From: Isosphaera pallida ATCC 43644
GTDB taxonomy: Bacteria; Planctomycetota; Planctomycetia; Isosphaerales; Isosphaeraceae
Reading direction: 5' to 3'
NCBI RefSeq assembly: GCF_000186345.1
Contig: NC_014962.1
Location: 682,001-746,000 of the forward strand
Length of the DNA: 64,000 nucleotides
This document shows positions 26,348 through 54,275 of this stretch, in pieces; within the stretch, counting starts at the first letter, position 1, and the number at the start of each line of letters is the position of its first letter. A model generated the notes under the pieces. That model worked only from the letters and a program-made list of their open reading frames with translations, was not told the DNA's origin and did no database searches. The position numbers and the translations under genes are program-made.

Positions 26348-26548
26348 ACCCCAGGAGCCGACGCGGCGGGCGGTCAGAGGCGGCGATTCAAGGCAGCACG
26401 GCGGGGGAATCGGCGCGGTTGAGTTTTCCAAGAAGATGAGGACATCGCCAAACGTGAATCACCCACTGCGCCCGCCGGTTGACTAAGGCCGCCTCGTTCC
26501 TACCCACGCCGACTTGTGGAGGATGAAAACCAACCGGAGCCGTTTCGC

Positions 26549-29500
26549 ATGACCAACCGTAATGAGGAGGAATTCCGCGAGAAGGGGCTCGGCGAGAACG
26601 ATCCGGGGTTCGAACCGCCATTGCATCGCTTCCAGATAACGACCGCTCCGCCTTCGTTCGACGCTCCAGATCCAACGGCGCGGGCCCCTGTGAGCGCCGG
26701 GTTGGATGGGACCGCCGGCTCCGACGAGCTTTGGGAGACATCTCGACGCATCGACTTGTCTGAACGGTTCTGCGAAGAGTGGGATCGCGCTACGGCCAGC
26801 CGTCATCGTGGTCTGGGTTTGACCCCGCGGCCTCGAATTGAAGACTACCTGGAGATGATCCCCCTGCGCTGGCGGCCCGGGTTGACGCTCGACCTGCTCA
26901 CCGAGGAACTGCGATTGCGTCGCCGGGACGGCGAGGTGCCCGAGGCCGAGGACTACCGGGACCGCTTTCCCGACTACGACGCCTGGATCAAAGAAGACTG
27001 CGTTCGGCATCGGCAACGCGGTCTCGCGTTGTTGACCGGATTGATGGCCTGGTCGATCGGCTTGAGCGACCTAGAGCGGGTCGCCCAGGCGGCTCGGGAG
27101 TGGAAGGCGTTGACCGAGGGACACTCCCAAGAGGCCGACTCCGACGGCTTGGCATCGTTGGAACCTGGTCGGAGCGAGTTTATCCCAGTTCTCATGCGTG
27201 TGGCGCAATTCAATCCCGATGATCGGGATTTGTTGATGCGCTGTGTCGAACGCCATCGCCGTCGCCACCAGGACGATTTGGCGGCCTGCTTCCATCATTT
27301 CCCCCAAGCCGGACTGATCCCGCCAGGGCCTCTGCACGGGATCGACTCCGATTTCGACTCCTGGTTGAGCCATTTGGGAGGTCGCCCGGCACGTTACCAA
27401 CCCTACAAGCTGTTGGGAATCGGCGGCATGGGGGAAATCTGGGCTGCCCGGGACAACGAACTACGCCGCCGTGTGGTGATCAAACGGCTGCCGGTCGAGA
27501 AAAACCTGCCCCACCATCGTCGATGGTTCATCGAGGGAGTCCGAACGCACGCCCGGCTCTTCGAGCCGGGATTGATCCCGGTCCTCGACGCCGGTTGGTT
27601 TGCCGACGGCTCCCCGTTCGCGGTCTTCCCCCTGATCCGAACCGCTAAAACCTTGCGCTACGAAATCGAGGCGTTCCATCGCCGACTCGCTCAAACCCAC
27701 CACCACAGCGGCGCTCGAACCCGCAACGCACCCAAGGAGGAACACCCCGATTCCCCCGCAGCCAGAATCTCCCAGGCGGCGACCCAGGTGGACCAATTCG
27801 CCTCCGTCAGGTCGAGGGAGGTCGGACTTTCCACACCTCTTCAAGACTGCCGGTTTCAATCCGATCCTTCAAAACCCGCCTCCGCTGCCCACGAACGTCG
27901 CAACTCCCACGCCTTGCCGAGCGAAATGTCCCCCCGCGCCCACTTCCGTCGCCTGATCATCTGGTTCGAATCGCTCTGCCGCACCGTTCACTATCTGCAC
28001 GTTCAAACCAGTTCGACCGTAATTCACCGCGACATCAAGCCCGAGAACGTCATGATCGGGCGGCGCGGTGAATTGTACCTGATCGACCTGGGAATCAGCC
28101 GCTCGCTCCGACTCAAACACGATCAGGACTTTGGACCATTCAGCGGTCTGGGGCAGGCCGTGCCTACCTTGCTGAGCCCCACCCCGGATCCCACGGGCAG
28201 CGGTGAGGCCACCTCAACCCCTCAACTCGAACACGCCGGCACTTTCGGATACCAACCCCCGGAGACCCTTCACGGACAGGTCGATCATCTCTCGCCCCGG
28301 TTGGACGTGTTTGGTTTGGGAGCCACGCTTTATCACATCTTGACTAATCGTCCCCCGTTGCTTCGCGGGGCGTTCCCCCATCCGATCGAACCCCACGTTC
28401 TTGCTGAGGCGGTGGCCGACTACCTGCGCCGTCGGGCGTTTCCACATCCCACCCAGCGTTTTCCCTGGATCTGTCCGCGTCTGGAGGCGATCTGCTTCAA
28501 GGCGATCGCCGCCGATCCCGAACTCCGGTACCAAACCGCCGACGAATTGGCTGATGCCGTCCGGCGGTGGTTGGACGACCAGGATCGCCTTCCCGACCCC
28601 GACCCCATCCCCATCCCCAAGGCCGGTCTACGAGCCGTGGGGGCCCGTTGCTCATCCTGGCTTGGCGCAGGAGTGCTGATCGGTTGCCTCAGCCTGGCCG
28701 TTTGGGGACTGCGCAATGAGGTCGTCCGCTCCAACGCCGACCAACAACGTCTCGCCAACCTAATCCCGGTCCTTGAAGCTCGGTTCGACCAAGGTGAAAT
28801 AATTGACCCTCAAGAACTCCACGACGTGACCGCCCTCAACCCCTCCCGGAGATTCCCCCTCCCGGAGGTTTCTGGTTCAAGCGTTCAGACTTCAACATGG
28901 TTGGCGCGCTGTCGGTTGCTTGTCGCCAGACACGGGTTGAGACAAGCTCAATGGAATCCTGGCCAGTTTGACGACCAGCCCTTCATCGAAACCTTGAACG
29001 AGATCGAGAAGACGGCTAATGAAATCAACGTTTCCGATTCTTCCCATCTTATGACCATTCGATATGCGTTGTTTCATGCTTGGTTGGAGTTGGCCCAGCT
29101 CCAAGGTTGGATGGAGCGGTTTAATGATGCCGATGTGTCGCTGGGCCGAGCGGAAGCATTCTGCTCCCGACTTCATCCCCAGGTTCGTCGGATTGCCGAA
29201 TTGGAATGGAAACGGGTCGCTCTCGATTGCGACGAGCGGTGGCGGCCCGCTTCGCGGGTGACCAGGTCTTGGAGCGCGCTTGCTGCCGAGTGTCAACGCG
29301 CTTTTGAACAGACGCTCGCCTCTGCCTCCACTTGGACGGAGGAACTGACCCAACCTCCCCTGGTGGCGTTGGCGGCCCGGGTTTGGTCCGAGTCGGCCAT
29401 TCGGGTGGCTCTTGCGATGGCTCGCTCCAACCGAACCGCCGAAATTTCCCACGTCATCAATCGCGTTGTGACGGCGTTGGCGAGCCTTCAAGAGTCGGAC

Positions 29501-29905
29501 AATCCTTCGACATTCGATCACCATCTCGTTTCTATCCTTGACCAACTGCGATTGGTTGCCGAGGCCGCTCATCTGCTGGAGTCAGGAAACGCGCTGTTTG
29601 ATTCCGAACTCGGGCGTTCCTTCGGGATTGGTTTGGATGGCACACGTCTGACAATCGTGCGGGAGCGGTGTCGATCCTGTCTGCATCAACCTCCCCGTCA
29701 TCCCGCCATTCTGGAGTTGCTCGCCCGCTTGGAGGTGATGGTTGCCGCCTCGCTGGCCCAACGCCAATCCCTAACCGAAGCGCGAACCTGGGCCAATTGG
29801 GCGTGTCGTCATCTCGACCTGCTACCTCCATCCCATCGCAACGCTCTTGCCTTGCTGCGCGAGGAGGCGGTTGGCATTGGGATGGGCGGGTTCAACCCAC
29901 GTTGA
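26549..29905 (+). CDS. Membrane Ser/Thr protein kinase (Hanks type) with TPR-like exterior
   Basis: 1118 residues from the ATG at 26549 (GGAG upstream); GTG at 26516 would add 11 residues. Residues about 60-145 hold the planctomycete kinase lead-in (RIEDYLEMIP, LRLRRRDGEVPEAEDYRDRFP). The kinase spans about 285-690: glycine loop GIGGMGEIW, Lys312 in VVIKRLP, HRDIKPEN with Asp495, and metal Asp513 in DLG, where DFG is usual. About 90 Ser/His/Ala-rich residues are inserted between the lobes (roughly 370-460), unusual for the family. One membrane helix lies near 701-724, then about 390 helical, tetratricopeptide-like residues. Probably partners the ECF sigma factor 200 bases upstream. Confidence 0.9.
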   Translation: MTNRNEEEFREKGLGENDPGFEPPLHRFQITTAPPSFDAPDPTARAPVSAGLDGTAGSDELWETSRRIDLSERFCEEWDRATASRHRGLGLTPRPRIEDYLEMIPLRWRPGLTLDLLTEELRLRRRDGEVPEAEDYRDRFPDYDAWIKEDCVRHRQRGLALLTGLMAWSIGLSDLERVAQAAREWKALTEGHSQEADSDGLASLEPGRSEFIPVLMRVAQFNPDDRDLLMRCVERHRRRHQDDLAACFHHFPQAGLIPPGPLHGIDSDFDSWLSHLGGRPARYQPYKLLGIGGMGEIWAARDNELRRRVVIKRLPVEKNLPHHRRWFIEGVRTHARLFEPGLIPVLDAGWFADGSPFAVFPLIRTAKTLRYEIEAFHRRLAQTHHHSGARTRNAPKEEHPDSPAARISQAATQVDQFASVRSREVGLSTPLQDCRFQSDPSKPASAAHERRNSHALPSEMSPRAHFRRLIIWFESLCRTVHYLHVQTSSTVIHRDIKPENVMIGRRGELYLIDLGISRSLRLKHDQDFGPFSGLGQAVPTLLSPTPDPTGSGEATSTPQLEHAGTFGYQPPETLHGQVDHLSPRLDVFGLGATLYHILTNRPPLLRGAFPHPIEPHVLAEAVADYLRRRAFPHPTQRFPWICPRLEAICFKAIAADPELRYQTADELADAVRRWLDDQDRLPDPDPIPIPKAGLRAVGARCSSWLGAGVLIGCLSLAVWGLRNEVVRSNADQQRLANLIPVLEARFDQGEIIDPQELHDVTALNPSRRFPLPEVSGSSVQTSTWLARCRLLVARHGLRQAQWNPGQFDDQPFIETLNEIEKTANEINVSDSSHLMTIRYALFHAWLELAQLQGWMERFNDADVSLGRAEAFCSRLHPQVRRIAELEWKRVALDCDERWRPASRVTRSWSALAAECQRAFEQTLASASTWTEELTQPPLVALAARVWSESAIRVALAMARSNRTAEISHVINRVVTALASLQESDNPSTFDHHLVSILDQLRLVAEAAHLLESGNALFDSELGRSFGIGLDGTRLTIVRERCRSCLHQPPRHPAILELLARLEVMVAASLAQRQSLTEARTWANWACRHLDLLPPSHRNALALLREEAVGIGMGGFNPR

Positions 29906-32310: not shown

Positions 32311-33337
32311 AGGCGATGTCACTGGGCCGCGATTGGGAACCACGGATCCGTCCTCGCCACCAGTTAAGCAAGTCGGCCAGGGTGGTTTCGATCGGGATGA
32401 GCGGCTGATCCCCCAGCGCTTCGTGGAGGGCCTGGGGGTCGCCTAGGATGCGGGGGGGGTCGTCGTTTCGGAGTCGCGCGGGGTCGATCCGCACTGGGAT
32501 GGGCCGGTCGGCTAGACCACGCAGGTGATCCAGCGCGTCGGCCAGCTTGATGCCGCGTCCTCGGCCCAACACCACGATTCGACCCAATACGGCGTGGCGC
32601 GTCAGCCGCAGGTAGGCTCGAACCATGTCGCGCACGTCGGTGAAATCGCGCTCGACCTCCAGGTTGCCCACGCTTACTTCGGATCGCATTCCCGCCTCGA
32701 CCTCGGCCACTTGACGAGCCATTCCCGAAAGGACGTAACGCTCCGACTGACGAGGACCGGTTTGTTGAAAGGGGCGGGCGATGACGACGTCAAATCCGTG
32801 GGCATGATGATACTGGAGCGCTGCGAGGTCGGCGGCGGCTTTGCTGGCGGAATAGGGGTCGCGGGGAGCGAGCGGGTCGTTGGGTCCAAACGGCGGGCGG
32901 TCGGGCGGTTCGGGACGTCCGTAACACATGCCGCTGCTTATCACCACCAGCCGGGGCCAGTGGAGGTGGGAAGAAGAGCCGGCTTGCCAGGAGAGAGGCG
33001 CGGCTTTCCGCATCGCCTCCAGCAGAGCGAGGGTGCCGCCGAGGTTGATTCGCCAGGTGGCCGGCGGGTCGTCGAAACTGGCGCGGGGGTTCGATTGGGC
33101 GGCGAGATGGAGAATCGCCTCGGGACGATCCTGTTGGAGCCTTCGGATGAGATCGTTGGTTGTCTCGGGCGCGGTCAGGTCCAAAGGTTCCAGAGGAACC
33201 TGGCCGTCGAGGTGGCCAAGGTCTTCGGGCCAGCGTCCCCGCCCAGCCCACCCCTGGACTTGATCGCCCCGTGCCAGAGCCGCTTCGACCGCGTAACCCC
33301 CCACAAACCCAGTCGCGCCGGTGATCCAGAGTTTCAT
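32306..33337 (-). CDS. NAD(P)-dependent sugar-nucleotide epimerase/dehydratase (GDP-mannose dehydratase-like SDR)
   Basis: 343 residues from the ATG at 33337 (MKLWITGATGFVGGY). Rossmann motif TGATGFVGG, HLAAQSN, a Ser-containing SSGMCYGRPE, and the catalytic Tyr/Lys in PYSASKAAADL identify an extended SDR. The RPFQQTGPRQSERYVLS pattern (key RPFNxxGP) and the DFTDVRDMVRAY signature resemble GDP-4-dehydro-6-deoxymannose reductases and GDP-mannose 4,6-dehydratases. It likely makes an activated deoxysugar for surface polysaccharide. It stands alone. Confidence 0.85.
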   Translation of the reverse strand: MKLWITGATGFVGGYAVEAALARGDQVQGWAGRGRWPEDLGHLDGQVPLEPLDLTAPETTNDLIRRLQQDRPEAILHLAAQSNPRASFDDPPATWRINLGGTLALLEAMRKAAPLSWQAGSSSHLHWPRLVVISSGMCYGRPEPPDRPPFGPNDPLAPRDPYSASKAAADLAALQYHHAHGFDVVIARPFQQTGPRQSERYVLSGMARQVAEVEAGMRSEVSVGNLEVERDFTDVRDMVRAYLRLTRHAVLGRIVVLGRGRGIKLADALDHLRGLADRPIPVRIDPARLRNDDPPRILGDPQALHEALGDQPLIPIETTLADLLNWWRGRIRGSQSRPSDIAS

Positions 33338-33540
33338 CGCCCTTGGTTTCCGTTCCACCCGAGCAAGGCCCATTCACCCAACTCACGCCCGTCGATCCGC
33401 GGACGGGACGCCCCGCCGGTTGTCCCGCGGCGATTGTAACGAGGCGACGCGGAGGGAACCAACCCGAATCGGCGGTTCCACCATGCTCCAGGGGAAGCGT
33501 CAAGGCGGGACGTTGGTTGGGGATGGAGAGCGGACGCCAC

Positions 33541-34806
33541 TCACTTGCCGACGATGTTTCTGACCGTCTCGCCACCGTGCATACTGCAACGAGGGCGGAT
33601 CGTGAGCAGTTGGGGAACCTTGAGCAGCGAGTCGGAACAGTCGTCGTCGGTCTGGACGAAACAGACACCCCATTCAAGATCAAGATTGCTGAGCCGTTGG
33701 GCCGAGAGCGATCCCAGATTGGGGGCCGCCTTGCGAAGCGAAGCGATCGCCTTGAGGTCGGAGGTTTTAAAGATCAAGCGCGTGAGGAGGTATTTAAAGA
33801 TGCGGGCCGGAATGCGGTCGGGGAACTGGGAGGCCAGCACGAACGACATGCCGTCGTGACGAATCTGGGTGATGGCGTTTTCAAGCTCGGCCACCAGGCC
33901 TTTCGAGTCCACATACTCGTGGGCTTCGTCGAAGACGATCATCTTGTTGACGCCGTTTTTGGCGCGTCGCACCAGGTCGGTCAGGACCAGGCAGAGCTTG
34001 AGGGCGTCATGACCGCTGAGCGCCTGCATTCTGAGATCGAAGATATTCAGGCTTCCTCCGGTTAGCACGTCGCCCCACTCGTAGTCCCGGTTGTCGGTCA
34101 GCCACTTGCCGGCGAAGCTCAGGCGGTTCTGAGCGCAACGTCGTTGCGTCGAACTGAGTCGCTCATCTGTGAGGATCTTTTTTCAAGGTTCTTGTACGTC
34201 AACTTTTTAAGATAAAAGATTTCATGGATAATGTTACGAGTGATATCCATGTATTCGGATTGAGAGCTAGGCGGTTTCATGAGGATTTCCCAGTGTTCCG
34301 CGCTGAGTTCGTCGGGGCGGAACTGGATGGGGTAGAGCGGGACGCCTCGATATTCCGCTTTGCGGCGTTGGAGTTCTGGTTCGTAACCGAAGATGTTGAT
34401 TCGATCGACACCGCACGGTTCGCCGCCGTATTCGTTGCGGAGCCGTTCGACCTCGGACGACTTGGTGTTGGGCTGGGCGAACCCCCAGTATTCGAAGCGG
34501 GCTTCGGGGCTTTTTCGATAGTTGAACGCCACGACGCACATGGGACGCTGATGACGGCTTAGGTTGGGCAGGGTCTTCAACGCACTTTCTATCAGCACGC
34601 CCAGGGCGTAGGATTTGCCGGATCCCATGTAGCCGAGAATGGCCATGCACTGAGGTTTGGTGAACGAGACGCCGAGCCCTTGGTTGCCGTCCCTGAGCCG
34701 TCCGAGCAGCCCGACGCTGGGGCTGTCCAGGTTGGTGTCGCCAATTACCAATTCAATTCAATGGGGACCGGTGATCCTGACGCGACGATCCTTGTCTGAC
34801 TTGGCC
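33541..34806 (-). pseudogene. Broken HerA/VirB4-like P-loop ATPase gene
   Basis: One ancestral gene is now split. The 5' part (about 34751 down to 34119) has Walker A GYMGSGKSYALG. The 3' part (from about 34130 down to 33541) has Walker B MIVFDEAHEYVD and the sensor region SFVLASQFPDRIP. Joining them needs one frame shift near 34122-34135: beyond the first part's stop, the second frame continues ...NRLSFAGKWLTDNRDYEWGD into the second part. Upstream of VIGDTNLDSP the same frame reads RRVRITGPH, then TGA at 34758-34760, so a nonsense codon is present too. The strand is locally AT-rich (34170-34260), unlike its neighbours. Such ATPases act in DNA translocation and in several defence systems. 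Confidence 0.75.
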
Positions 34807-35448
34807 TCACACAATCCGTCTGCGCAACAAACGCACTCCCTGGAACCGAATTGGTTGTTGATCGGCTTGTCTCCTTGAACGATGGACTCGGCGCGGCGGT
34901 TGGAGCGGGCCGCGGCTCTTGCCAAGCCGGTGGGTGGGACTCCCTGAAGAGGGGACGCGACGATGAGCTCGCCGCGAGGGGGTGGGCGGGTCTTGGTCCT
35001 TTCGGCGTCCTCCCGTGTCGAGATCCCGCTCGAATTGCGAGATCAACACGGACGTGAACACATGGGCGAGAAGATCATCCAGTTGGCTTCGCTTCGAGCC
35101 GACTTTGGGGGAGGATTTCGCCAGCGAAAGGACGATATTGGTCCAGATGTGCTGAGCCACCGCCTCCTCGTTGTTGGGCTTGGGCACGAACAGGATTTGA
35201 TTGGTTTCGGAGCGTTTGCGGGCTACCCTCATCAGCAGGTGTGTCTTGCCGGTGCCCGCTTCGCTGAGGACGAGGATGCCTTGCGACGTCGGCTTGGTGC
35301 CGGACTCTCTCGCCCGATTCAAATTGGTCAACGTCCAGTCGATCTTGCGGTAAGCGGCAAGGTTGTAATCCTCAAGATCGGGCACCGTGTCCCAGGGGTC
35401 GTCCACGCGATCCTTGCCGATGAACGAGGGAGGATCGTTCTCCAGCAA
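34807..35448 (-). pseudogene. Truncated/frameshifted P-loop ATPase, partner of the HerA-like gene
   Basis: From the ATG at 35448 the frame encodes a good protein for about 150 residues: DPWDTVPDLEDYNLAAYRK, Walker A LSEAGTGKTHLLMRVARKR, FVPKPNNEEAVAQHIWTN, ending near SVLISQFERDLDT. After about position 35010 the frame turns into Arg/Pro/Ser-rich nonsense. The neighbouring frame stays open into the HerA-like gene, which suggests a deletion or frameshift joining the two. Walker B and the arginine-finger regions are missing. The ATPase pair resembles two-gene cassettes found in mobile or defence loci, but I cannot name the system. Confidence 0.65.
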
Positions 35449-35789
35449 GGGGCGATAACGATCCGATTCTTAAAAGTTTATGTTCATCGCCTCTCATGAT
35501 TTTCCCGGTTCTCGGCCACCAAGGCGTGTGCTGTTTTCTCGAACGATCCGGAGACCATCGACTCCATTTCGTTTCATTCATGGTCGCCGCAAACGAGATG
35601 TTGGGCAAGGGACCAGAGGTGGTTTGTTGGTGGCAACGACCGCTTCAGGCGACGCCAAGGCGTTTGATTTCTTGATCGTTTGGTTGGCCGGCGATCTCGG
35701 CGCGGATTGGATCAACCACCGGATCGCCAATCGTCAAGCCGGCCGACGAATCACTCTCGTTCACCCAGTCCAGCTGATTGGGAACGTCC
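35449..35789. other. Gene-poor stretch with possible coding debris and a nested hairpin
   Basis: No convincing gene. On the minus strand a short frame (about 35785 to 35640) reads DVPNQLDWVNESDSSAG, then IGDPVVDPIRAEIAG, and could be a fragment of a lost gene. The same DNA holds a nested dyad: GGCCGGC (35686-35692) with GCCGGCC (35738-35744) outside GATTGG (35705-35710) with CCAATC (35727-35732). It starts 46 bases after the stop of the leucine-rich gene at 35790 and may be that gene's terminator. Confidence 0.35.
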
Positions 35790-37373
35790 TCAAACCCGCA
35801 ACCCCGGGCCGAACAAGTCGCGTAGACGGGCGCGCAGCGAGTCGGAGAAGGGGTTGCCTTCCAAGCGGACCTGGCGGGCGTGGGGGGACGGTTCGCCCAG
35901 GGCGATGCGACGGGTTTGGTCGTTGATCAGGGCGGCGGCCTCGTGGTCGTCGAAGCCGCAATGGCGTAGGTCTAACTCGTCGAGGTTGGCGGTGCGTCCG
36001 CCCAAAATCAAGCGCGCTAGCACCGACGAACCAACCTTCGGGCCACCCTCAAATCCTCCGGGGATGGATGGCGAACCATCGGACAGGCTGCGGATCGCGT
36101 CGCAAGCCTGACGGCCAAGCGGGTTATGGTCCAGACCGATTCGTTTCAAGTTGGCCACGACCGGCCAATCAGCCAGGGTTTGGGCCCCGACCGGACCGAT
36201 TCGGTTAGACCCCAACTCCAGATCGCGCCAGGTGTTTCCCTCAGCGCGACGGCGAAACATTGGTCGGATCGCCGCCGTGATCCCGTTGCGTCGCAGATCA
36301 ACCACCTTCAAACGTCTCACCACTTGAGAATAAGCCAGGTCGCGCAGGCCAATGTCGCCCACGAGGTTGATCGCCAGGTCGAGCCGCTCCAGGTTGTAGA
36401 GATGCGACGAATTGGCCAGGTGGCTGACCCCATCGTCGCCGATGCCATTGTCCCGCACGATCAGTTCGGTCAGACCACTCAGGTGAACCGATCCGCCCAA
36501 TTCCTGAAGTCCCCGGTCTCCCAGGTGATTGTGCGACAGATCCAGCGATCGCAGACCCGCAACGGTGGGCGAAGCGGCCAACGACTGCGCTCCACGCGGG
36601 CCGATCTGTTCGTGACGAATCGCTAGATGCTCGATCGATTTGAGGTGGCCTTCTTCGATGAGGCGAATCAATCCCGTATCCCCCACCGAACCCACTCCGC
36701 CCGCTGGATCGGTCGAGAGGATCAAGCGACGAAGATGGGGCAGGTTGGACAACGACAGCCCCAAAGAAGGCCACAACCGGCCAAACGAACAGCAAAGCCC
36801 GCGCAAATGACTCAGATGGGGCGAACTCAAGAGCCGTCCCAACGCCCAGGAGTCGCGGTCGCGTTGAGAATCCACCACCGTCAGGTCGCGGATGCGGCCC
36901 AAGAGCGGCCAAGCGGCCAGACGTTCCGCGGAAGGTTCGTCGAGGTGGACCAATTCGAATGCGTCGATCGGGGCGACGGCCATCAGCCATTCCAAAGTGG
37001 CCGGGTCGATCCGATCGGCTCGAATCCGCGCGGCGCGGGGAAGGCCGCGGACGAACCGTTTGACCTCAACGCAGCTTGCTTGAGCGCCCAAACGGGACTG
37101 CCAAACCTGAGCCTGATGGGCGGTGAGTAAACCAACCCGCTCCTCAATCGCGTCGCGGTGAGGGGTCTGCCGTTCCAGTCCTTCGAACTCGACTTGGAGC
37201 CGAATCAGCTCGGCCGCCTCGCTGTTCCCTAGTTCCTCCAGCCAGTCGGCATAGATCAAGCTGGGGACTGGATCGTCTCCGCCAACGGCGATCGCGTTGG
37301 TAAAAAACGCATGATCCCGCCATTCCTCCGCGTCGTGGTTGGTGGATGGAGACGTTGGCGCGGACATGGACAT
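35790..37373 (-). CDS. TIGR02996 domain / leucine-rich repeat protein (second copy)
   Basis: 527 residues. The TIGR02996 domain is at about 15-65 (AFFTNAIAVGGDDPVPSLIYADWLEELGNSEAAELIRLQ; key D-P..IYADWLEE.G....A..IRLQ). Leucine-rich repeats follow from about 190 to 520 (LRSLDLSHNHLGDRGLQEL, LTELIVRDNGIGDDGV, LERLDLAINLVGDIG), closely like ribonuclease-inhibitor repeats of the RNI type. Longer and better preserved than the paralogue at 773-1891. Likely an interaction scaffold; partner unknown. Confidence 0.82.
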   Translation of the reverse strand: MSMSAPTSPSTNHDAEEWRDHAFFTNAIAVGGDDPVPSLIYADWLEELGNSEAAELIRLQVEFEGLERQTPHRDAIEERVGLLTAHQAQVWQSRLGAQASCVEVKRFVRGLPRAARIRADRIDPATLEWLMAVAPIDAFELVHLDEPSAERLAAWPLLGRIRDLTVVDSQRDRDSWALGRLLSSPHLSHLRGLCCSFGRLWPSLGLSLSNLPHLRRLILSTDPAGGVGSVGDTGLIRLIEEGHLKSIEHLAIRHEQIGPRGAQSLAASPTVAGLRSLDLSHNHLGDRGLQELGGSVHLSGLTELIVRDNGIGDDGVSHLANSSHLYNLERLDLAINLVGDIGLRDLAYSQVVRRLKVVDLRRNGITAAIRPMFRRRAEGNTWRDLELGSNRIGPVGAQTLADWPVVANLKRIGLDHNPLGRQACDAIRSLSDGSPSIPGGFEGGPKVGSSVLARLILGGRTANLDELDLRHCGFDDHEAAALINDQTRRIALGEPSPHARQVRLEGNPFSDSLRARLRDLFGPGLRV

Positions 37374-39938: not shown

Positions 39939-41357
39939 ATGACCACCTCGCCAGCCCGCGCGCGGGCGGTTCGACCCGTGGCGGCCTCCCTTTGGTTTCT
40001 GCCGGTCGCTACCCGGGTTCCCCTCAAGTTCGGCCCCGAAACCCTCACCGAAGTCGTCTGCGCGCGGGTGCGGCTCACTGTCGAGGACCGCCAGGGACGA
40101 CGCGCCCACGGCTGGGGCGAGACCCCCCTGAGCGTCCAATGGGTCTGGCCTTCTCCCCTGACCCACGCCGAACGCCAACAGGCGCTCATGGGGCTTTGCG
40201 TCGATCTCGTCCACGCCTGGAGCGAATTCGACCGCTTCGGTCATCCCCTCGAAGTGGGCCGCGCTTTTCTGGACGAGCGACTGCCCGACCTGACCCGCGC
40301 CGCCAACCTCCGCGCGCCGGGGCGCGACCCTCTGCCCCACTTGGCTGCCCTGGTCTGCAATTCGCCATTCGACCTGGCGCTGCACGACGCCTTCGGCAAC
40401 CTTCATGGAATCGACCTCTATCAAGCCTATGGAGCCGACTGGCTCGAATCCGACCTCGCCGCCTTCCTCGAACCGGCCGAGGACGCTCGCGGCCGCATCT
40501 CCTTTCAGAACCTCCGGCCCGACGCCTTTTTGACCCCCCGGCGAAATTGTCTCACCGCCTGGCATTTAGTGGGCGGACTCGACAAGCTGGAACCGCATGA
40601 CCTCGACGGCACCGAACCAAACGACGGCTACCCGGTCCACCTGCGCGACTGGATCGCCCGCGACGGCCTGACCTGCCTCAAAATCAAACTCAGGGGCGAC
40701 GACCCCGCCTGGGACTTCGATCGCCTCCAACGAGTTGGTCGGATCGCCGCCGAAACCGGGGTCCAATGGCTCTCGGCCGACTTCAACTGCGTCGTCCGCG
40801 ACCCATCCTACGTCGTAGAGACGCTCGACCGACTTCTCGTTGAACGTCCCGATACCTTTGCCCGCTTGCTCTACGTCGAACAGCCGTTTCCCTACGACCT
40901 GGAGGCGCATCCTCTGGACGTTCGGAGCGTCTCGGCCCGCAAGCCGCTCTTTTTGGATGAAAGCGCGCATGATTGGCGCGTCGTCCGCCTGGGCCGCTCG
41001 CTGGGTTGGACCGGGGTGGCGCTCAAGACCTGCAAGACCCAGACCGAGGCGATCCTAGCCCTGTGCTGGGCGCGTGCCCACGGCATGACCTTGATGGTTC
41101 AAGACCTGACCAACCCGATGCTCGCGCAGATTCCCCACCTCTTGCTGGCTGCTCACGCCGGCACTATTCAGGGGGTCGAAACCAACGCGATGCAGTTCTA
41201 TCCCGACGCCTCGGCTCCTGAAGCGACGGTTCACCCCGGGCTTTATCGGCGACGGGAGGGCATGGTGCGTCTGGACTCGATTCAGGGGCCCGGGTTTGGC
41301 ATCAGGGTTGAGGAGATTCCCCGATCCCTCCCCGAACCGGCCGCCGCGCGGCAGTAG
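39939..41357 (+). CDS. Enolase-superfamily enzyme (mandelate racemase/muconate-lactonizing type)
   Basis: 472 residues, ATG at 39939. The C-terminal barrel has the expected acid/base and metal residues in order: LKIKLRG (K-x-K), SADFNC (Asp ligand), VEQPF (Glu ligand), FLDES (Asp/Glu) and ALKTCKTQTEA. The NSPFDLALHDAFGNL capping segment is typical. The reaction starts with proton abstraction alpha to a carboxylate; possible roles are dipeptide epimerase, o-succinylbenzoate synthase-like or sugar-acid dehydratase, none decided by sequence. It is longer than most members (about 370) owing to insertions at about 185-235. Divergent from asnB. Confidence 0.82.
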   Translation: MTTSPARARAVRPVAASLWFLPVATRVPLKFGPETLTEVVCARVRLTVEDRQGRRAHGWGETPLSVQWVWPSPLTHAERQQALMGLCVDLVHAWSEFDRFGHPLEVGRAFLDERLPDLTRAANLRAPGRDPLPHLAALVCNSPFDLALHDAFGNLHGIDLYQAYGADWLESDLAAFLEPAEDARGRISFQNLRPDAFLTPRRNCLTAWHLVGGLDKLEPHDLDGTEPNDGYPVHLRDWIARDGLTCLKIKLRGDDPAWDFDRLQRVGRIAAETGVQWLSADFNCVVRDPSYVVETLDRLLVERPDTFARLLYVEQPFPYDLEAHPLDVRSVSARKPLFLDESAHDWRVVRLGRSLGWTGVALKTCKTQTEAILALCWARAHGMTLMVQDLTNPMLAQIPHLLLAAHAGTIQGVETNAMQFYPDASAPEATVHPGLYRRREGMVRLDSIQGPGFGIRVEEIPRSLPEPAAARQ

Positions 41358-41396
41358 ACGGGAGATGGGTTGTGTGGCGTCGCGTCGAGTCATCAG

Positions 41397-43454
41397 TCAT
41401 CGGGTGGTGAACACTGGATAATCCTTGATCTCGCCGGTCAGCACGCGGGCCAGCAGGCGGACCTGAAGTTCAAGCATCCGTCGATAACTCAGACGGTAAC
41501 TGAAAAGGGGATGGGTGGCCAGGTGGTCCATCCGGGTCTCGTAGGCGCGGATAAACGCCTTGCGGCCGGCGGGGGTTAACGCGACCGAGTCGCCGGCGCG
41601 GAGGAAGTCCGACGGCGTGACCATGCGGGTGTTGATGGCGAACAGCACGGCTGAATCGGCGATGAGCGGACGGAACGGTTCCATCAAATCGAGCGCCAGG
41701 CCGCAACGTCCATGACGTGGTTGATGATAAAACCCCAAATAGGGGTCTAGGCCGACCGCGTGGCAGGCGATTGTCATATCCTTGGTCAACAAGGCGTAGC
41801 CCAGCGACAACAGTGCGTTGACCGGATCGCGGGGCGGACGGCGGTTGCGCTGATCGAAGTGGAAGGTCAGGGCGCGGGGGTCGTCGGAGGGGGGCTGGTG
41901 GGGGGTGTGGTTGTCGTCCGGCTTGATCAGGCCGTTGAAGTTCTGAAAATAAAGGCGGGCGATGGTTCCCTCCAAACCCAGGAGGCTCTCCAGCGAGTCG
42001 GCCTGTTCGACCTCTTGGATTATCGCTCGGATGCGCTGGATCGCTCCAGCGGGTGGTTCGATGTGGTTGCGTTGAAGCATGGTGCGTTGATTACGGGCTT
42101 TGCCTGCCACTAAGCGTTTGGCCAGCGCCAAACAAAAGGCCGGATCGTCGGCGCGTCGGAACTGCTCGCGGCGAATCATGACGTTGCGCAGGTCGAGGCC
42201 TCGAGTCAGGCCGTAGAACCAACCGCCCTGCGAGAAGTAGGCGATCGGCACCTCGTGTTCGCATAGGGTTTGAATTGCCTGGGAGGAGAGTTGCACGTTG
42301 CCGAAGACGCTCACTTGACAGGTCTCTTGGATCCGGACTTCCTGGAGAATCTGGTCGTCCTTACGGATCTTGAGAACGGCACCCGACTTGCTCACGAACG
42401 TTCCTTGGGTGTTGAGATAAAGCGATTTGAGATCGTCGCGCGGGGTGACCAACGCGCGAACGGCGGTCGGAGCGTTGCTCTCGGCGGCCGAGGACTCTGT
42501 GGAGGCGATCGCGTCGGGGGGGGCGGAGTTGCGGAGTAAGTTCGTTTCGTCGGGCAAGCAAATACCCACCAGGGAGCAACGGGGGCATTTGGGACTGTCC
42601 ACCAATGGCGGAGGAATCGTGCCGGATCGGGCCAGTTGACGGGCTTCGTCCAAGGCGCGGAGGGTGGTGGCGATCAACGAATCGTCGATCGGAACGTCGA
42701 CTCGTTGCCGGGTTTGGTGATAGTAGACCACGCCCCGCTCGCAGCGGTAGCCGTTGGCGCGCAGCACCAGGGCTTGCACCGCCATTTGCACCCGTTCGGG
42801 TTCCCAGACCTGGGGTTGTCCATCGTCGGCCAGCCGGGGTTTGCCCTTCTTATAATCGACTGGGATCATCGCGCCATCGGCGCACTCGATCAGGTCGAGC
42901 TTGGCGATCAGGCCGTGGTGGTCGTCGGCCAGGCTGACGCTGCGGGCGTGTAGGCGTTCCGCCTCGCCCTTCTCGACCTGTTGAACCGATGGTAGGTCGT
43001 CGGTTTTGCCGTCCACCCGCGTGTGGCGGTGACGACCTTCGACCACGTCGAGATTTTCGGCGAAAACCCCTTCCACCCATTCGTAGTAGAAGAGTCTAGG
43101 ACAATAGATGTACTCGTTGAGCATCCGCGCTGGCATCAACGCCTCTTCTTTGGAACGCAGTTGTGCGGAGGAGAGTTGTGGCGAGTTTGCCCGCGTGGAA
43201 CGAGGATGCGTTTCCGTGGGGATGACGATCGGTTGGGAATGAAGGGACGAGTCGTCGTCCTCGTTCTCGTCGAGGGCCGAGGCGGCCTGCTCCATCTTCA
43301 GGTCGTTTGAAACCATCGTAGCCCCGGAAGGGCAGGGCGAGGCGGCGGGACCAACCGGCTTGGCCGCCTCGGGTCCAGGAGGAGGCGGAGGCTCCGACTG
43401 CTCGGCGAAGTCCTCGTCGCAAGGTGGAATGATCAGAAAATCTTCAGTACTCAT
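41397..43454 (-). CDS. cas4-cas1: Cas4-Cas1 fusion (type I-G/I-U CRISPR adaptation)
   Basis: 685 residues from the ATG at 43454 with GGAG nine bases upstream; an internal ATG at 43136 (MPARMLNEY, GAGG upstream) would give the usual family length. Residues 1-107 are a Pro- and acid-rich, probably disordered extension. The Cas4 part (about 107-320) has Fe-S cysteines Cys118, Cys290, Cys293 and Cys299 and the nuclease motif PVDYKKG. The Cas1 part (about 345-685) keeps the metal triad Glu495 (LGLEGT), His577 (GFYHQ) and Glu592 (DLMEPFR). It should trim prespacers and, with Cas2, integrate them. It looks intact although the effector genes and array are missing nearby. Confidence 0.93.
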   Translation of the reverse strand: MSTEDFLIIPPCDEDFAEQSEPPPPPGPEAAKPVGPAASPCPSGATMVSNDLKMEQAASALDENEDDDSSLHSQPIVIPTETHPRSTRANSPQLSSAQLRSKEEALMPARMLNEYIYCPRLFYYEWVEGVFAENLDVVEGRHRHTRVDGKTDDLPSVQQVEKGEAERLHARSVSLADDHHGLIAKLDLIECADGAMIPVDYKKGKPRLADDGQPQVWEPERVQMAVQALVLRANGYRCERGVVYYHQTRQRVDVPIDDSLIATTLRALDEARQLARSGTIPPPLVDSPKCPRCSLVGICLPDETNLLRNSAPPDAIASTESSAAESNAPTAVRALVTPRDDLKSLYLNTQGTFVSKSGAVLKIRKDDQILQEVRIQETCQVSVFGNVQLSSQAIQTLCEHEVPIAYFSQGGWFYGLTRGLDLRNVMIRREQFRRADDPAFCLALAKRLVAGKARNQRTMLQRNHIEPPAGAIQRIRAIIQEVEQADSLESLLGLEGTIARLYFQNFNGLIKPDDNHTPHQPPSDDPRALTFHFDQRNRRPPRDPVNALLSLGYALLTKDMTIACHAVGLDPYLGFYHQPRHGRCGLALDLMEPFRPLIADSAVLFAINTRMVTPSDFLRAGDSVALTPAGRKAFIRAYETRMDHLATHPLFSYRLSYRRMLELQVRLLARVLTGEIKDYPVFTTR

Positions 43455-43485
43455 GGTGACGGACTCCACCGTCTTCCCGGACTGG

Positions 43486-43779
43486 TTAGACCACGACGCA
43501 TGGGGCGTCCAGCGGAGCGTAGGGCAGTCCTAGGGCGGTGATGACCCGGTCGCTTCGTTGTTCAGTCGGACCCAGGTCCACAAACAACACCTGGTCTTCG
43601 CCGTGATGGATGATGTCTCCCAAAAGGCGGCGGCAGTTGGCCAAGTCGATCGGGGTCAGACGACACTCGAAGATCGAGTATTGAAGATGGTCGCCAAAGT
43701 CGCGCAAAGTTTGGAAGACTTTGCGTAACCGTTTGGGGTCACAGATGTCGTAGCATACAAGATAAGTGCGTCGAGACAT
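43486..43779 (-). CDS. cas2: CRISPR-associated endonuclease Cas2
   Basis: 97 residues from the ATG at 43779 (MSRRTYLVCYDICDPKRL). The ferredoxin-like fold begins YLVCYDICD with the conserved acidic residue, followed by FGDHLQYSIFECRLTP, typical of Cas2. It is the structural core of the Cas1-Cas2 integrase. It lies 31 bases upstream of cas4-cas1 and 71 bases after the csb2 remnant on the same strand, so the three form one unit. It looks full length. Confidence 0.93.
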   Translation of the reverse strand: MSRRTYLVCYDICDPKRLRKVFQTLRDFGDHLQYSIFECRLTPIDLANCRRLLGDIIHHGEDQVLFVDLGPTEQRSDRVITALGLPYAPLDAPCVVV

Positions 43780-43850
43780 AGCGGTCACTCGTCTTCTTGA
43801 TGGGCTGATCTTGAGGACGAAATCCGCGACGGTTTGAGGCAGACTGCGGT

Positions 43851-44747
43851 TTAGCCGCGCCAAGGGCGCATCAACCCGTAGCCAAAATAGCGGCCTGCTC
43901 CTATGAGCAAGGGTCCATCCACCGGATAGGCGAATCGAACCGCCACATGCCAGCGCATCTCGGAGGGGCGACCCGAACGGCCTGGCAAGGGTGGGAAAGC
44001 CAACGCGGGAGGAACCCCTTGAAAATAGGAGTCGGGACGGAATTCCACCTGGATTGGCTCTGGATAACCCATCCGAGTGCAAGATTGCGCCACGATCGCT
44101 TCGATGCTAAGCTTGCCCTTTTTGGGATGCTGGTCGAGGGCCACTGGGGTGACGCTCACCCAGGTTTCGGCTGGCCCCACCCAGGTGGTTTGAGCTAGGG
44201 GCTCACCGAAGCGTTCGGAACTCCGGGTTGGACAAGGCCGCAGATCCCAAGCGCCGGTGCGTCCCAGGGTCAATCTCGGGGTCGGTTTCGAGCGATTTCG
44301 AGGACCATAACGAGTTGATGGTAGCAAATCGGAAAAGATGAGCAAAGATGGTGGTTTAGGAATTTCGGGGTTGCCCCCCTCCAACGAGCAGCCTACCACC
44401 AATCGGGGCACCGCGAGGGCGACCGCGTCGATTCGCGCTTCCCGTCCCCCACCTTCCAACTGTGGCAACGCTAGGAAGGCCAGATGGGGGCGATCGGTCT
44501 TGTTGGCCTGAGGACCGCTCCGGTGGCCCGAGACCCATTCCGGGGGCGGCGAGTCGGAGTCGAATCGGCTCAATACGAGACCACGCAGGGCGTGCGTTAC
44601 CATCAACGTCTGTTGAATGGTGGGGCGGGGCCAGACGTTCTTGACTAATTCCAGCAGCATCAAGCGGGGCTGGAAGGGTGGGGCTGATTGCCGCGAGGGA
44701 TCGTTAAAGTGGGGCGAATTCGAGGCCGCCGCTTCAGAATGGGACAT
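43851..44747 (-). CDS. csb2: csb2 remnant: C-terminal Cas6-like half of the type I-G Cas5-Cas6 protein
   Basis: 298 residues from the ATG at 44747; MLLELVKN at 44660 is an alternative. Sequence from about residue 30 matches the latter half of the Csb2/GSU0054 family: PTIQQTLMVTHALRGLVL, HLAFLALPQLEG, VALAVPRLV, and the C-terminal glycine-rich block RFAYPVDGPLLIGAGRYFGYGLMRP typical of a RAMP/Cas6 fold (key G-P-LLIGAGR-GYG). The Cas5-like N-terminal half (about 200 residues in full-length members, from memory) is absent: upstream DNA has no matching sequence and a divergent BlaI gene begins 259 bases away. cas3, csx17/cas8 and csb1/cas7 are also missing. Functional status is uncertain. Confidence 0.75.
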   Translation of the reverse strand: MSHSEAAASNSPHFNDPSRQSAPPFQPRLMLLELVKNVWPRPTIQQTLMVTHALRGLVLSRFDSDSPPPEWVSGHRSGPQANKTDRPHLAFLALPQLEGGGREARIDAVALAVPRLVVGCSLEGGNPEIPKPPSLLIFSDLLPSTRYGPRNRSKPTPRLTLGRTGAWDLRPCPTRSSERFGEPLAQTTWVGPAETWVSVTPVALDQHPKKGKLSIEAIVAQSCTRMGYPEPIQVEFRPDSYFQGVPPALAFPPLPGRSGRPSEMRWHVAVRFAYPVDGPLLIGAGRYFGYGLMRPWRG

Positions 44748-44807
44748 GCTCACAAACGGACCTCGTGGTACGTGTGGGCGTTGGTTCCAACTCACGGGGG
44801 CTGGGTG

Positions 44808-44824
44808 GACCCGGACTCCGGGTC
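44808..44824. promoter_or_regulatory. Perfect 7-bp hairpin upstream of the csb2 remnant
   Basis: GACCCGG (44808-44814) and CCGGGTC (44818-44824) are separated by three bases. It lies 61 bases upstream of the csb2 ATG, in the 258-base region shared with the divergent BlaI gene. A single copy, so not a CRISPR repeat as far as this window shows. Confidence 0.3.
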
Positions 44825-44914
44825 GGTTCCAGTGTTGGTTGAACGCGAAGGTTGTCAAGGGGGTGGTCCTCAAAACAAAGGCATGGGGATTGCACGGTCG
44901 CGTTGGGCCTCCTC

Positions 44915-44944
44915 TTGACGGAATGCGCGTCAAAACTGTATCGT
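44915..44944 (+). promoter_or_regulatory. Candidate sigma70-like promoter of the BlaI-type gene
   Basis: TTGACG (44915-44920), an 18-base spacer and TATCGT (44939-44944) fit a housekeeping promoter. The -35 box is part of a dyad TTGAC-N9-GTCAA (44915-44933), a possible self-binding site for the repressor, although it is not the TACA-x-TGTA operator of classical BlaI. Confidence 0.4.
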
Positions 44945-45005
44945 GACTCCGCGTCTTCGAGGAAACCAAAATTGGCGGTGATGCCAAAAGGGGTGGAGGT
45001 GCCGG

Positions 45006-45551
45006 ATGGGACGCCCGGCGTCGGAGGTGACGGAGCGGGAGTGGCAGGTGATGCAGGCGGCCTGGCGGCTGGGTCGGTTCGACCTGGCGGCGATGCGGGC
45101 CGAGTTGGCCGCTTCTGGGTTGCCGCTGGCCTCCACCACGGTGGCCACGCTGTTGCGGATTTTGCTCGATAAGGGGTTGCTTGGGGTGGTCGATCCCCGC
45201 CGTCCCCAACAGTACGAGCCGATCCGTCGCCGCGACGAGTTAGCCCGACGGATGCTCAACCAGTTCGTCGATCGTGTTTTTGAAGGCTCACAAATAGACG
45301 CGATCATGAGTTTGGTCAGCTCCGAGCGCCTTTCCAGCCGCGCCCGCGCCCTGTTGTGGGCGTTGCGGGAGGAACTGGGCGATCAAGCTGATTGGGCACG
45401 AGCAGGGGGTTGCTTATCCCGTTCGGCTTGGTCATCGCAAGTGGGGGGGTGGGGGACCCTCAGCGAGGGGATCACCCATGACCAGCCTGAAGGGGGAGAT
45501 CGCGCTGGTGGTCGAGAGCGCCCCGGCCGCGGTCGTACTGGCGTTAGATAG
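45006..45551 (+). CDS. BlaI/MecI-family winged-helix repressor
   Basis: 181 residues; ATG at 45006 follows GGAGG. Residues 1-125 match the family: TEREWQVMQAAWRLG, the recognition segment LASTTVATLLRILLDKGLLG, and the dimerisation helix RRMLNQFVDRVFEG. Classical members bind as dimers and are inactivated by a membrane M56 protease encoded next door. No M56 gene follows. Beyond ALREELGDQ the tail (about 50 residues) is Gly/Arg-rich and unlike the family, and a G-rich run at 45442-45455 may mark a frameshift into lost downstream sequence. Another frame there encodes 39 residues starting MTSLKGEIALVVES (45478-45597). Confidence 0.82.
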   Translation: MGRPASEVTEREWQVMQAAWRLGRFDLAAMRAELAASGLPLASTTVATLLRILLDKGLLGVVDPRRPQQYEPIRRRDELARRMLNQFVDRVFEGSQIDAIMSLVSSERLSSRARALLWALREELGDQADWARAGGCLSRSAWSSQVGGWGTLSEGITHDQPEGGDRAGGRERPGRGRTGVR

Positions 45552-45806
45552 GGCGACCCCAAGATGTCAACCGCAACTTGGACGGGTTATTGATTGAAGG
45601 TGTTGGCACAAGCTTCGCCCAAGTTCGCCCAAGGAGGTGCGTTTCTGACGTGTCCAATGACCCAAAAAAAGGGAAAAAGAAAAGGGCTGATCCGGTCCAC
45701 CAGTTGAACTCGACCCGCCAAAACGGCCAACCATGATGGAGCTGGAGTAGGTGCCGTGCGCTGTGCGCTGAGGGATGGGCGGAGAAGATGGACAACGGTA
45801 CGGCAA

Positions 45807-45893
45807 CGGAGGGGGTGGGATTCGAACCCACGGAACCCTTGCGGGTTCAACGGTTTTCAAGACCGTCCCAATCGACCACTCTGGCACCCCTCC
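45807..45893 (-). tRNA. tRNA-Ser (anticodon UGA)
   Basis: Read on the minus strand, the acceptor stem GGAGGGG pairs with CCCCTCC. The anticodon stem ACGGT/ACCGT encloses the loop CTTGAAA, giving anticodon TGA. The T-arm GGGTTCGAATCCC is canonical. The long variable arm (AACCCGCAAGGGTT) is the hallmark of a class II serine tRNA. CCA is not encoded. Downstream on the same strand (about 45658-45690) are several T-runs that could help end the transcript. Confidence 0.95.
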
Positions 45894-45953
45894 GGGAAAG
45901 TCGGCGTTGGTTTGGAAGGTGAGGAAAAGTGACGCGGTTTGACGCGGAGCGGT

Positions 45954-46352
45954 TCAGGATTGCATCGCTTCGGTAATGACATCTTCGGCGACGTAGATTG
46001 GCACATCGGCGGTGACGGCCACGGCGAGGGCGTCGCTGGGGCGGGAGTCGATCTGAATGAGTTCGCCCTCGAAGCGGACGCGGAGCTTGGCGTAGTAGGT
46101 GTGGTCGCGCAACTCGGTGATGAAGACATCCTGGAGTTCGCCCCCTAGCGCCTCGATGGTGTTGACCAGCAGGTCGTGGGTGAGAGGGCGTTGGGCGACG
46201 ATACCTCGAACCCGGCGTTCGATGCTGTTGGCCTCGAACAAACCTATGACAATGGGAAATTGACGCGGACCGTCCACCTCGCGGAGAAAGATGATCTGTT
46301 CCTGGCCGTTTTCATTGATGACGATCCGCGAGAGTTCCATCTGGACGGCCAC
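45954..46352 (-). CDS. Bifunctional-nuclease-domain protein (DUF151/BFN)
   Basis: 132 residues from a GTG at 46352 (V-A-V-Q-MELSRIVI), the length and start expected for the family; the frame is open to 46559 but those residues look unrelated. Family motifs are FPIVIGLFEANSIERR, RPLTHDLLVNTIEALGG and SRPSDALAVAVTADVPIYV. Homologues show DNase and RNase activity in plants and stand alone or fused to UVR domains in bacteria; the physiological role is unsure. Located beside tRNA-Ser on the same strand. Confidence 0.85.
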   Translation of the reverse strand: MAVQMELSRIVINENGQEQIIFLREVDGPRQFPIVIGLFEANSIERRVRGIVAQRPLTHDLLVNTIEALGGELQDVFITELRDHTYYAKLRVRFEGELIQIDSRPSDALAVAVTADVPIYVAEDVITEAMQS

Positions 46353-46659
46353 GGTGTAGCGTCCTCGACAACACGACGACCCGCGGACGCGGGCGAAGAA
46401 GAGGTTAATCGAAGTCGGTTCACTCGAGCGCGGCCGCGTCGAAGGATGGATTCGGGAGGCCGCTTCTTGGTGGTGGGCGATCCATGAATCGAGCGACACG
46501 CGACGAGCGCCGTTATTCCCGCTGCTGCCCATGATAGGGACCCCTTGCGTGGTCGTCAACTCGCCAGACCAAGCGTTGTGGTCGCGGCGCTCCGCGGTGG
46601 GGAGGGTAGGAAGCGGGGAGCGGTCGAGTTGATGCCCGAGCGAGGTGATTGGGGGTGGG
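46353..46659. other. 307-base stretch between the GH3 gene and the BFN gene
   Basis: No convincing gene if the BFN gene starts at 46352. The BFN frame continues upstream to 46559, so a longer protein is possible. The rest is GC-rich sequence with short inverted repeats only; no clear promoter was found. Confidence 0.4.
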
Positions 46660-49879: not shown

Positions 49880-49920
49880 TCTGCCTCTCTTGGGTCAAGG
49901 AGCGCGTGGGGTCGGTCGGG

Positions 49921-51210: not shown

Positions 51211-51376
51211 GACAATTCTCCTTTTGAGGATGTGACTTGTCTTGTTCCGTCTTGCCGAAGGCGATGCAAGAGCCAAACCAATCCTTGAAGGATGGGATGG
51301 CTTCCTAATTCCAAATTGATGAGCCTACATGCGTCGATCGGTGGGACTCGATGCGATTGCTAGCGACCGCGTTGGT

Positions 51377-52702: not shown

Positions 52703-52712
52703 GGGAGGCGTC

Positions 52713-52763
52713 CGCTCCTCTGGGCGTCTGGGCGTCCTCCGAAAACGAGTTCCCGGAGGAGCG
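52713..52763 (-). promoter_or_regulatory. Alternative hairpins in the KS-beta leader
   Basis: CGCTCCTC (52713-52720) can pair with GAGGAGCG (52756-52763), or TCCTCCG (52735-52741) can pair with CGGAGGA (52754-52760); the two stems exclude each other. On the coding strand the first includes a GAGGAG that is the only Shine-Dalgarno-like sequence (12 bases before the ATG at 52702), so folding could gate translation. Confidence 0.3.
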
Positions 52764-52916
52764 ATCCCTCACTCCAATCCTTTGATCGACTTCTTGAGGA
52801 TCATCGGCCAACTCCGCCGAGATCCTGGAATCGAACCACCCGTCGCGTCATCCGATTGGAGCCGATCTCCTATCAGACCGGGTTGCCAGCCTGATTGGGC
52901 CGCGCGCCTGTTTGGC

Positions 52917-53429: not shown

Positions 53430-53560
53430 CACTGCGGTCCCGCTTTGGAGTTGGGAGTCCATCTAAGCTCGCAGAGGAGCGATTCCGGTTCAAGGCGTTC
53501 AAACCCAACACGACGCGGGTCGGTCGCGTTCACCATCGCGCTCGGTCCCGGAACGGCGGG

Positions 53561-53594
53561 ATTGTGGGACGGTACGGGTTGTCCTGCCCACAAC
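53561..53594 (-). terminator. Hairpins downstream of the acyl carrier protein gene
   Basis: TTGTGGG (53561-53567) pairs with CCCACAA (53586-53592); alternatively GGTTGT (53576-53581) pairs with ACAACC (53589-53594). They lie 68-101 bases after the ACP stop on the minus strand, within a 232-base gap. Confidence 0.35.
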
Positions 53595-53661
53595 CAAGGA
53601 CGCCAACCGCTCACCTTCTCCGCCGCTCCGCTCCAATTCGATTTAGCTTGGCTCGCGTGGT

Positions 53662-54048: not shown

Positions 54049-54201
54049 GATTCACCTCGATATCGAGTTCGAGACGGCTCAGTTCGCCGGTGGGGGATCG
54101 GAAAGAGAGAAAGAAGCGAACACCCGGCGGAGTCGCGTGACGCGCGAGGGCCAGGCCCGAAGGCGTTGGTCCCTCTTAGGAAGAGACCGGGTCGGCAACC
54201 A

Positions 54202-54223: not shown

Positions 54224-54275
54224 ATCAAATGGGCGGGGCGAAACCTCGACGACGACCGGCGAGCCGCCCCGTGGG

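Follow-up and report, generated by a model that had tools for sequence, protein, structure and literature searches.

A fused AAA+ and HerA/FtsK-type ATPase gene, probably for a predicted capture-type defence protein, in broken form in Isosphaera pallida

Examination of a 64,000-nucleotide stretch of the Isosphaera pallida genome (the window; positions 682001-746000 of a 5,472,964-base replicon in a genome of 5,529,304 bases on two contigs) reveals a region that, judged from sequence comparison, is almost certainly the pseudogene of one fused gene. The original prediction had called this region a decayed two-ATPase cassette; relatives carry a single fused frame in place of a cassette, and the decay is borne out by a lost start, a missing middle and frame changes. 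By analogy with published predictions the ancestor was rather probably a capture-type defence protein, which is itself a predicted type, and we hold the joint reading, a pseudogene (probably recent) of a fused gene for a capture-type protein, to be likely by a slightly smaller measure.

The minus strand from 35500 to 33541 was read and translated, and tblastn searches with three intact relatives (L010, L011 and L012) gave the same picture with each query: three collinear pieces in the window (Table 1). The two adjacent broken ATPases that had been proposed are indeed in line and both interrupted (35469-34993 and 34757-33556, minus strand), but, because the relatives carry a single open frame, the pieces are the two ends of one gene and not two genes. 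The N-terminal piece matches the Pfam AAA_16 domain at E 1.1e-4, which is under the cut-off that the same domain exceeds in intact L010, and the first half of the C-terminal ATPase matches the DUF87/HerA central domain at E 1.2e-4 (22.7 bits against a Pfam cut-off of 23.2). By eye, the HerA-type ATPase motifs are kept. What the window copy retains of the protein is a stretch of ~156 residues at the N-terminal end, the HerA-type part and, between them, the linker; this linker ends as do those of the relatives, three of which contain 51-62% P+S+A+T, and a level of 55% was reached by 12 of 590 stop-free random frames.

Table 1. Features of the window copy (window positions) and full-length frames of its relatives
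Feature	Position	Strand	Evidence or length
N-terminal piece, start of AAA+ ATPase	34993..35469	-	tblastn 65% identity, L010 residues 5-160
Lost start: in-frame ATG 35487-35485, then TAA 35472-35470	35470..35487	-	sequence, translation
Retained Pro/Ser/Ala/Thr-rich linker	34758..34992	-	one frame with 56% P+S+A+T, ends in PVPI
C-terminal ATPase, first half, Walker A GYMGSGKS	34179..34757	-	tblastn 76% identity, L010 residues 718-910
C-terminal ATPase, second half, DEAHEY and ASQFP	33541..34182	-	tblastn 86% identity, L010 residues 910-1118 (aligned 34182-33556)
Full-length frame, L009 (Tautonia sociabilis)			1,120 codons
Full-length frame, L010			1,123 codons
Full-length frame, L011			1,135 codons
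Full-length frame, L012			1,159 codons
Full-length frame, G588			1,181 codons (first start)
Full-length frame, G617			1,154 codons

The lesions of the window copy comprise the lost start, a change in Walker A, the missing middle and two frame changes. The in-frame ATG of Table 1 is the sole one upstream of Walker A, an ATG at 35497 lying in a different frame, and the start may have been lost either by a nonsense mutation or by a shift of frame. A Walker A motif is present in the first ATPase, as had been noted, with its first glycine, invariant in the compared relatives, changed to serine; this is one of 5 departures in the N-terminal piece at 61 columns that are invariant in the other sequences. 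The missing middle amounts to ~485 residues, roughly residues 161-645 of L010 (the rest of the AAA+ domain, a restriction endonuclease (REase)-like domain and a probable winged helix), a loss of ~1.45 kb; the tblastn matches leave a gap between L010 residues 160 and 718. The deletion lies at the 5' edge of the linker and a frame change at its 3' edge; what had been taken for an abrupt frame change in the first ATPase at ~35010 is the edge of this deletion. The first frame change falls where the linker ends, on a tandem ATTGA repeat, with PVPI in one frame and the continuation IELVIGD in another, so that the TGA at 34758-34760, correctly reported, arises from the change of frame at the repeat. 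The second frame change, which had been placed near 34122-34135, exists near 34180 within a run of A, the abandoned frame extending to 34119. With these lesions the window copy is no longer able to make the fused protein. A search of the organism's own genome for L010 residues 161-645, in which all 13 candidates were scored, returned only a paralogue, 40% identical, and one further sequence that matches weakly at 27%. Within 33300-36000 no repeats beyond short pairs were found.

Six planctomycete relatives contain the gene as one uninterrupted frame of 1,120-1,181 codons. L009 and the planctomycete MAGs L010, L011 and L012 were found with a window piece in a search that reaches close relatives only; these four are the same records as G034, G017, G532 and G497 of the class-wide draw (L009-L012, in that order). 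Where the original prediction had suggested looking for intact pairs in other genomes, these relatives show the fused frame, and its caveat that homologues might normally be split at the break points does not apply to the six. In a search with profile A1 (E <= 0.001) at least 51 of 297 genomes of the class, the own genome included, gave a match, mostly a weak one, and at least 7 of the 297 matched over the full length with more than 1,500 bits; scoring was confined to a few candidates in each genome (two at most in the rows shown), so that weaker or further copies were possibly missed. One of the seven, G469 of the Isosphaeraceae (L040:8533-12069), is full length, but two in-frame stops (TGA and TAG) lie around its HerA Walker A motif; it was apparently inactivated independently, although a sequencing error is also possible there. 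In G509 the N-terminal half stands as a 692-codon gene and the HerA half was not recognised. The last window piece matches 3 of 59 genomes and the middle window piece 5 of 392 genomes of the phylum (own genome included in both counts), four of the latter at 26-31% identity.

The profile A1 matches in the own genome comprise this remnant and a paralogue of the N-terminal module (G000:C2:1961015-1963081; locus L037:9932-12868, plus strand), which is an intact gene of 978 codons with about 40% identity; its tail matches part of an SF1-helicase-type AAA_12 domain (24.6 bits against a cut-off of 27) in place of HerA. A viral or phage origin was considered and rejected: in viral contigs searched with two peptide patterns 125 stretches matched one pattern and none was a relative, 50,697 phage records gave no match, and plasmids gave parts only, with 24-31% identity in 13 records, each over 23-48% of the query length.

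The original prediction had called the locus a possible fossil, which the rates of substitution make doubtful. Estimated by a Nei-Gojobori script, dN/dS between the window copy and L010 is about 0.10, 0.09 and 0.08 for the three pieces, with dS near saturation, and for the same pieces between L010 and L009 it is about 0.20, 0.15 and 0.09. Departures at columns invariant in the other sequences number 13/224 in the window, 2/226 in L010, 2/226 in L009, 13/237 in L011, 11/235 in L012, 11/235 in L022 and 35/259 in L042 (the list omits the rows for L040, a copy that is broken and partial), and the window copy is not exceptional since relatives show comparable numbers. Hence a fossil with long relaxation finds no clear sign in either measure, and most of the divergence of the window copy looks, from these comparisons, to have arisen under constraint. 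As its dN/dS resembles that of intact pairs, the gene was probably lost recently; the event is undatable, and an older break is possible because dS is near saturation. The region is also more AT-rich than its neighbours, as had been stated: its GC fraction is 0.578, compared with an average of 0.632 across 1,242 overlapping windows of equal size, remnant-covering ones among them; 0.6% of these windows are no richer in GC than the remnant. Since 6 of 8 related genes measured are likewise AT-richer than the rest of their own locus, this need not stem from decay.

The intact protein contains, in order, an AAA+ ATPase, a probable REase-like domain, a helical end, the Pro/Ser/Ala/Thr-rich linker and a HerA/FtsK-type ATPase. 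In L010, Pfam recognises AAA_16 (48.9 bits, cut-off 32.6) and DUF87/HerA (27.7 bits, cut-off 23.2), so that a HerA/FtsK domain is present above cut-off in the intact protein and present in split form in the window; in L012, DUF87 scores 20.5 bits, under the cut-off, and is accompanied by a C-terminal topoisomerase zinc ribbon, which is also apparent by eye in L022. None of the 22 NCBIfam models that match L010 at E <= 0.1 reaches its own cut-off. They include weak matches to VirB4, CedD and HerA, which lie in the C-terminal half and are all far under the curated cut-offs (the VirB4 model TIGR00929 scores 24.0 bits against 643.1), and a sequence search of solved structures returned HerA proteins only, weakly (E 0.0056 and 0.047). 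The AAA+ ATPase is probably ORC/Cdc6-like: residues 360-425 match the AAA+ lid domains of RFC, NSF and ORC at Z 4-6, while the orc1/cdc6 NCBIfam models score far under their cut-offs in L010.

An AF2 model of the whole protein from ten aligned sequences has a mean pLDDT of 53, the AAA+ core including the Walker A region being of low confidence, and was used solely in its confident parts; among these, residues 441-650 are mostly confident, with ten-residue means of 74-89 and one of 54. Modelled alone, L010 residues 432-652 (pLDDT 92.7) form helices and a central sheet followed by a helical end, which is, judged by eye, probably a winged helix. For this model the best matches that VIA-align lists include SfsA (Z 5.5, rmsd 3.2, 111 aligned), EcoT38I (Z 5.3, rmsd 5.3, 135 aligned), BstEII and BamHI, with unrelated entries tied, for example a stressosome protein and acetyl-CoA carboxylase; with the whole model EcoT38I comes first (Z 6.6, rmsd 4.6, 119 aligned), all of these lying below the Z of 8 under which, as the fold tools warn, a match may reflect a common arrangement alone. 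Foldseek places MspJI (E 5e-3) and EcoT38I (E 9e-3) first, with no match at or below 1e-3. No conserved (D/E)xK occurs in this domain across nine sequences. From these weak fold matches residues 432-652 are probably an REase-like domain lacking a recognisable (D/E)xK, and within the intact protein no active nuclease was recognised.

This architecture most resembles, in our analysis, the predicted HerA/FtsK capture defence proteins, and the breakage in I. pallida would be an ordinary gene loss. In the mobile neighbourhoods described in a 2024 paper, an Orc/CDC6 AAA+ ATPase, an inactive and an active REase and a HerA/FtsK ATPase occur on single or several polypeptides, the inactive REase sitting between the AAA+ core and a winged helix; HerA/FtsK is there proposed, as a prediction, to intercept invader DNA (PMC10853773). 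The planctomycete protein shares with the Orc/CDC6 type, as described there, an AAA+ domain, a probable REase-like domain that is followed by what is probably a winged helix, and the HerA/FtsK ATPase, as well as patchy presence and some defence-gene neighbours. It differs in that an active REase is usual in the described systems, whereas none was recognised in it and no constant nuclease partner was found for it, and the planctomycete branch is set apart by one fused chain and by the C-terminal zinc ribbon of L012 (and, by eye, L022). The string 'planctomycet' has no occurrence in the main text of that paper. In BREX-related capture (BRC), as outlined in a 2026 account (PMC12839542), an ORC/Cdc6-type AAA+ and a HerA/FtsK ATPase are likewise used together, but each has its own gene, and PglZ, DUF4007 and a STAND NTPase, which were unrecognised here, accompany them. 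Hma, given in its description as three proteins (helicase, m5C methyltransferase and ATPase; PMC8565338), was rejected as a candidate, since the families listed at E <= 0.01 for L010 and for L012 include no HmaC model.

The original prediction of a defence role is plausible: beyond the likeness of the relatives to predicted HerA/FtsK capture proteins, 3 of the 7 full-length loci (L010, L012 and L040) lie near DISARM-type genes, each with a DrmD-type helicase gene. The L012 helicase passes the NCBIfam DISARM_DrmD cut-off (669 bits against 610), and DrmMI/type IIG genes occur near L010 and L012, the type IIG gene of L012 being the second downstream. In spite of this likeness to class 1 DISARM (DrmD, DrmMI), the fused ATPase does not figure among the named components of DISARM, and drmA, drmB and drmC were unrecognised among the scanned neighbours; the remnant locus itself holds no recognised drmD/drmMI with drmABC. 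In L010 the ATPase gene shares 11 bases with an Mrr gene (the Mrr_cat match is partial, 2-46 of 115), and a type II REase/PDC-S02 match lies near L040. The remaining surroundings are varied: a protein with ParB_N and DNA-methylase domains and an adjacent HTH_36 gene, as on plasmids or phages, at L009; a PemK toxin and a PDC-S31-type protein at L011; and PDC-S36-type and weakly PDC-S63-type proteins at G588, where four proteins were scanned in an AT-rich locus (L041) in which scripted gene calls missed genes, the ATPase gene among them. The PDC matches and the PemK toxin are further candidates for defence genes. The G617 contig, at 7,557 bases, is too short to judge neighbours. Among the neighbours scanned, no DISARM-type gene was recognised beside L009, L011 or G588, and no active REase beside L009 or L011. 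The differing neighbours of the relatives argue against the capture reading, as do the lack of a recognised active nuclease in the intact protein and the weak fold matches of its middle domain.

In the window, the remnant is preceded upstream by genes for an LRR protein, an asparagine synthase and an enolase-superfamily protein, which separate it from CRISPR genes about 6 kb off, and followed downstream by a NAD-dependent epimerase, a Sir2-type protein and a galactokinase-type gene. The nearness to CRISPR genes had led to the suggestion of an eroding island; the distance stands and the island is unsupported in the scanned proteins. PADLOC models, run on 10 window proteins, matched the product of 43854-45209 (Csb2/Cas5-6 models of CRISPR type I-G) and one protein kinase (kinase models), the other 8 giving no match at E <= 0.001, and Pfam named no recombinase or transposase among 15 window proteins beyond the remnant pieces. 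The kinase gene (26516-29905) lies on the opposite strand, 3.6 kb from the remnant. At 41397-45209 a Cas4-Cas1 fusion (type I-G) exceeds its model cut-off, Cas2 matches and the Csb2 match is partial; no regular repeat array was found within 40500-46500. In an empty-site comparison the neighbouring epimerase was matched in 37 of 41 family genomes, with gene order around it not conserved in 15 surroundings and asnB within about 7 kb in 2 of the 15.

A tblastn search of the whole window with the called neighbour proteins of the relatives recovered only the remnant, two weak matches and, with proteins from L038, a cluster at 48.8-54.8 kb. This cluster, of fatty-acid/ketosynthase type, is separated from the remnant by about 13 kb in the window (48824-54773) and from the intact gene by about 3 kb in L038 (12855-19146), which may be chance or old synteny. 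The drm-type neighbours of the relatives have no homologues in the window; the DrmD matches of the own genome lie elsewhere, the two strong ones at 4.94-4.96 Mb. There, two helicase genes ~10 kb apart (G000:C2:4942822-4944516 and 4953203-4955023) match the DrmD model at 360 and 221 bits; they may be ordinary SNF2-type helicases, as the model matches 14 of 14 control genomes too.

The tempting alternative that two separate ATPase genes, a defence pair, decayed side by side has in its favour the P-loop ATPase at both ends of the window copy, the stand-alone N-terminal half of G509, and MADS-type plasmids and G464, in which the HerA-type domain belongs to a different large protein. It is largely refuted by the presence of both halves in one frame in all 7 full-length relatives found (one of them with two stops) and by the fusion linker still in the window, and we give it very little credence. 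Even less credible are sequencing or assembly errors within an intact gene. Runs of A are typical sites of 454 errors, and one of the frame changes falls inside such a run; against this, several lesions, including the large deletion, fall within 2 kb, and an artefact is unlikely because the genome of I. pallida IS1B is described in its report as finished, Illumina-corrected, with 140.7x coverage and an error below 1 in 100,000 (PMC3072084).

As to its function, the intact protein might, instead of serving in defence, be a VirB4/T4SS-like ATPase for conjugation or DNA transfer, or a motor of the HerA type for repair or segregation. This would fit the weak VirB4, CedD and HerA matches of the C-terminal half and the neighbours of L009, and HerA/FtsK ATPases generally move DNA. 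We regard it as unlikely given how far those matches fall under the curated cut-offs, the absence of a relaxase or pilus gene among the scanned part of the neighbours of the relatives, the lack of matches in 50,697 phage records and of relatives in viral contigs searched with two peptide patterns, and the patchy presence at full length in the class. A remnant of a MADS system (Mad7/Mad8) draws on a homologous HerA-type ATPase domain, which matches the PADLOC mad8 model (PDLC04140) at E 1.9e-12 in the last window piece and 2.1e-28 in L010. On Bacteroides and Hymenobacter plasmids (L013, L014) this domain forms the end of a protein of 1,845 or 1,850 residues, in operons that also hold N-6 methylase, S-subunit and protein kinase genes; these large proteins look like mad7 and mad8 fused. 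The planctomycete protein differs in its N-terminal half and in that the S-subunit and kinase partners were not recognised. The plasmid proteins cover L010 residues 673-1117 or 729-1117 only, a methylase, S-subunit and kinase operon is absent among the scanned window neighbours, with neither a methylase nor an S-subunit gene there, and the methylases beside L010, L012 and L009 fit DrmMI, type IIG or type II better than mad2 (18, 18 and 31 bits), which makes a MADS remnant most improbable.

By analogy with the published predictions, the N-terminal half of a capture-type protein would find and grip invader DNA, and the HerA/FtsK ring would drive this DNA to the nuclease of a partner. That partner may, in some of the relatives, be Mrr, a type IIG enzyme or a DISARM-type helicase/methylase. 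More speculatively, and with considerable doubt, the intact protein might be an unnamed, largely self-contained capture-type defence protein, with AAA+, a dead nuclease fold, a winged helix and the HerA motor combined on a single chain, that borrows nearby nuclease or DISARM-type partners and has been repeatedly switched off in the Isosphaeraceae, namely in the window and in G469. Together the above observations correct an apparent defence pair to one broken gene, and Tautonia sociabilis and several planctomycete MAGs, which carry the gene intact, offer material for trying the predicted type of defence protein. Should the break in G469 be real, the gene would have been inactivated twice within one family, as would suit a gene whose upkeep is a burden where it serves no need.
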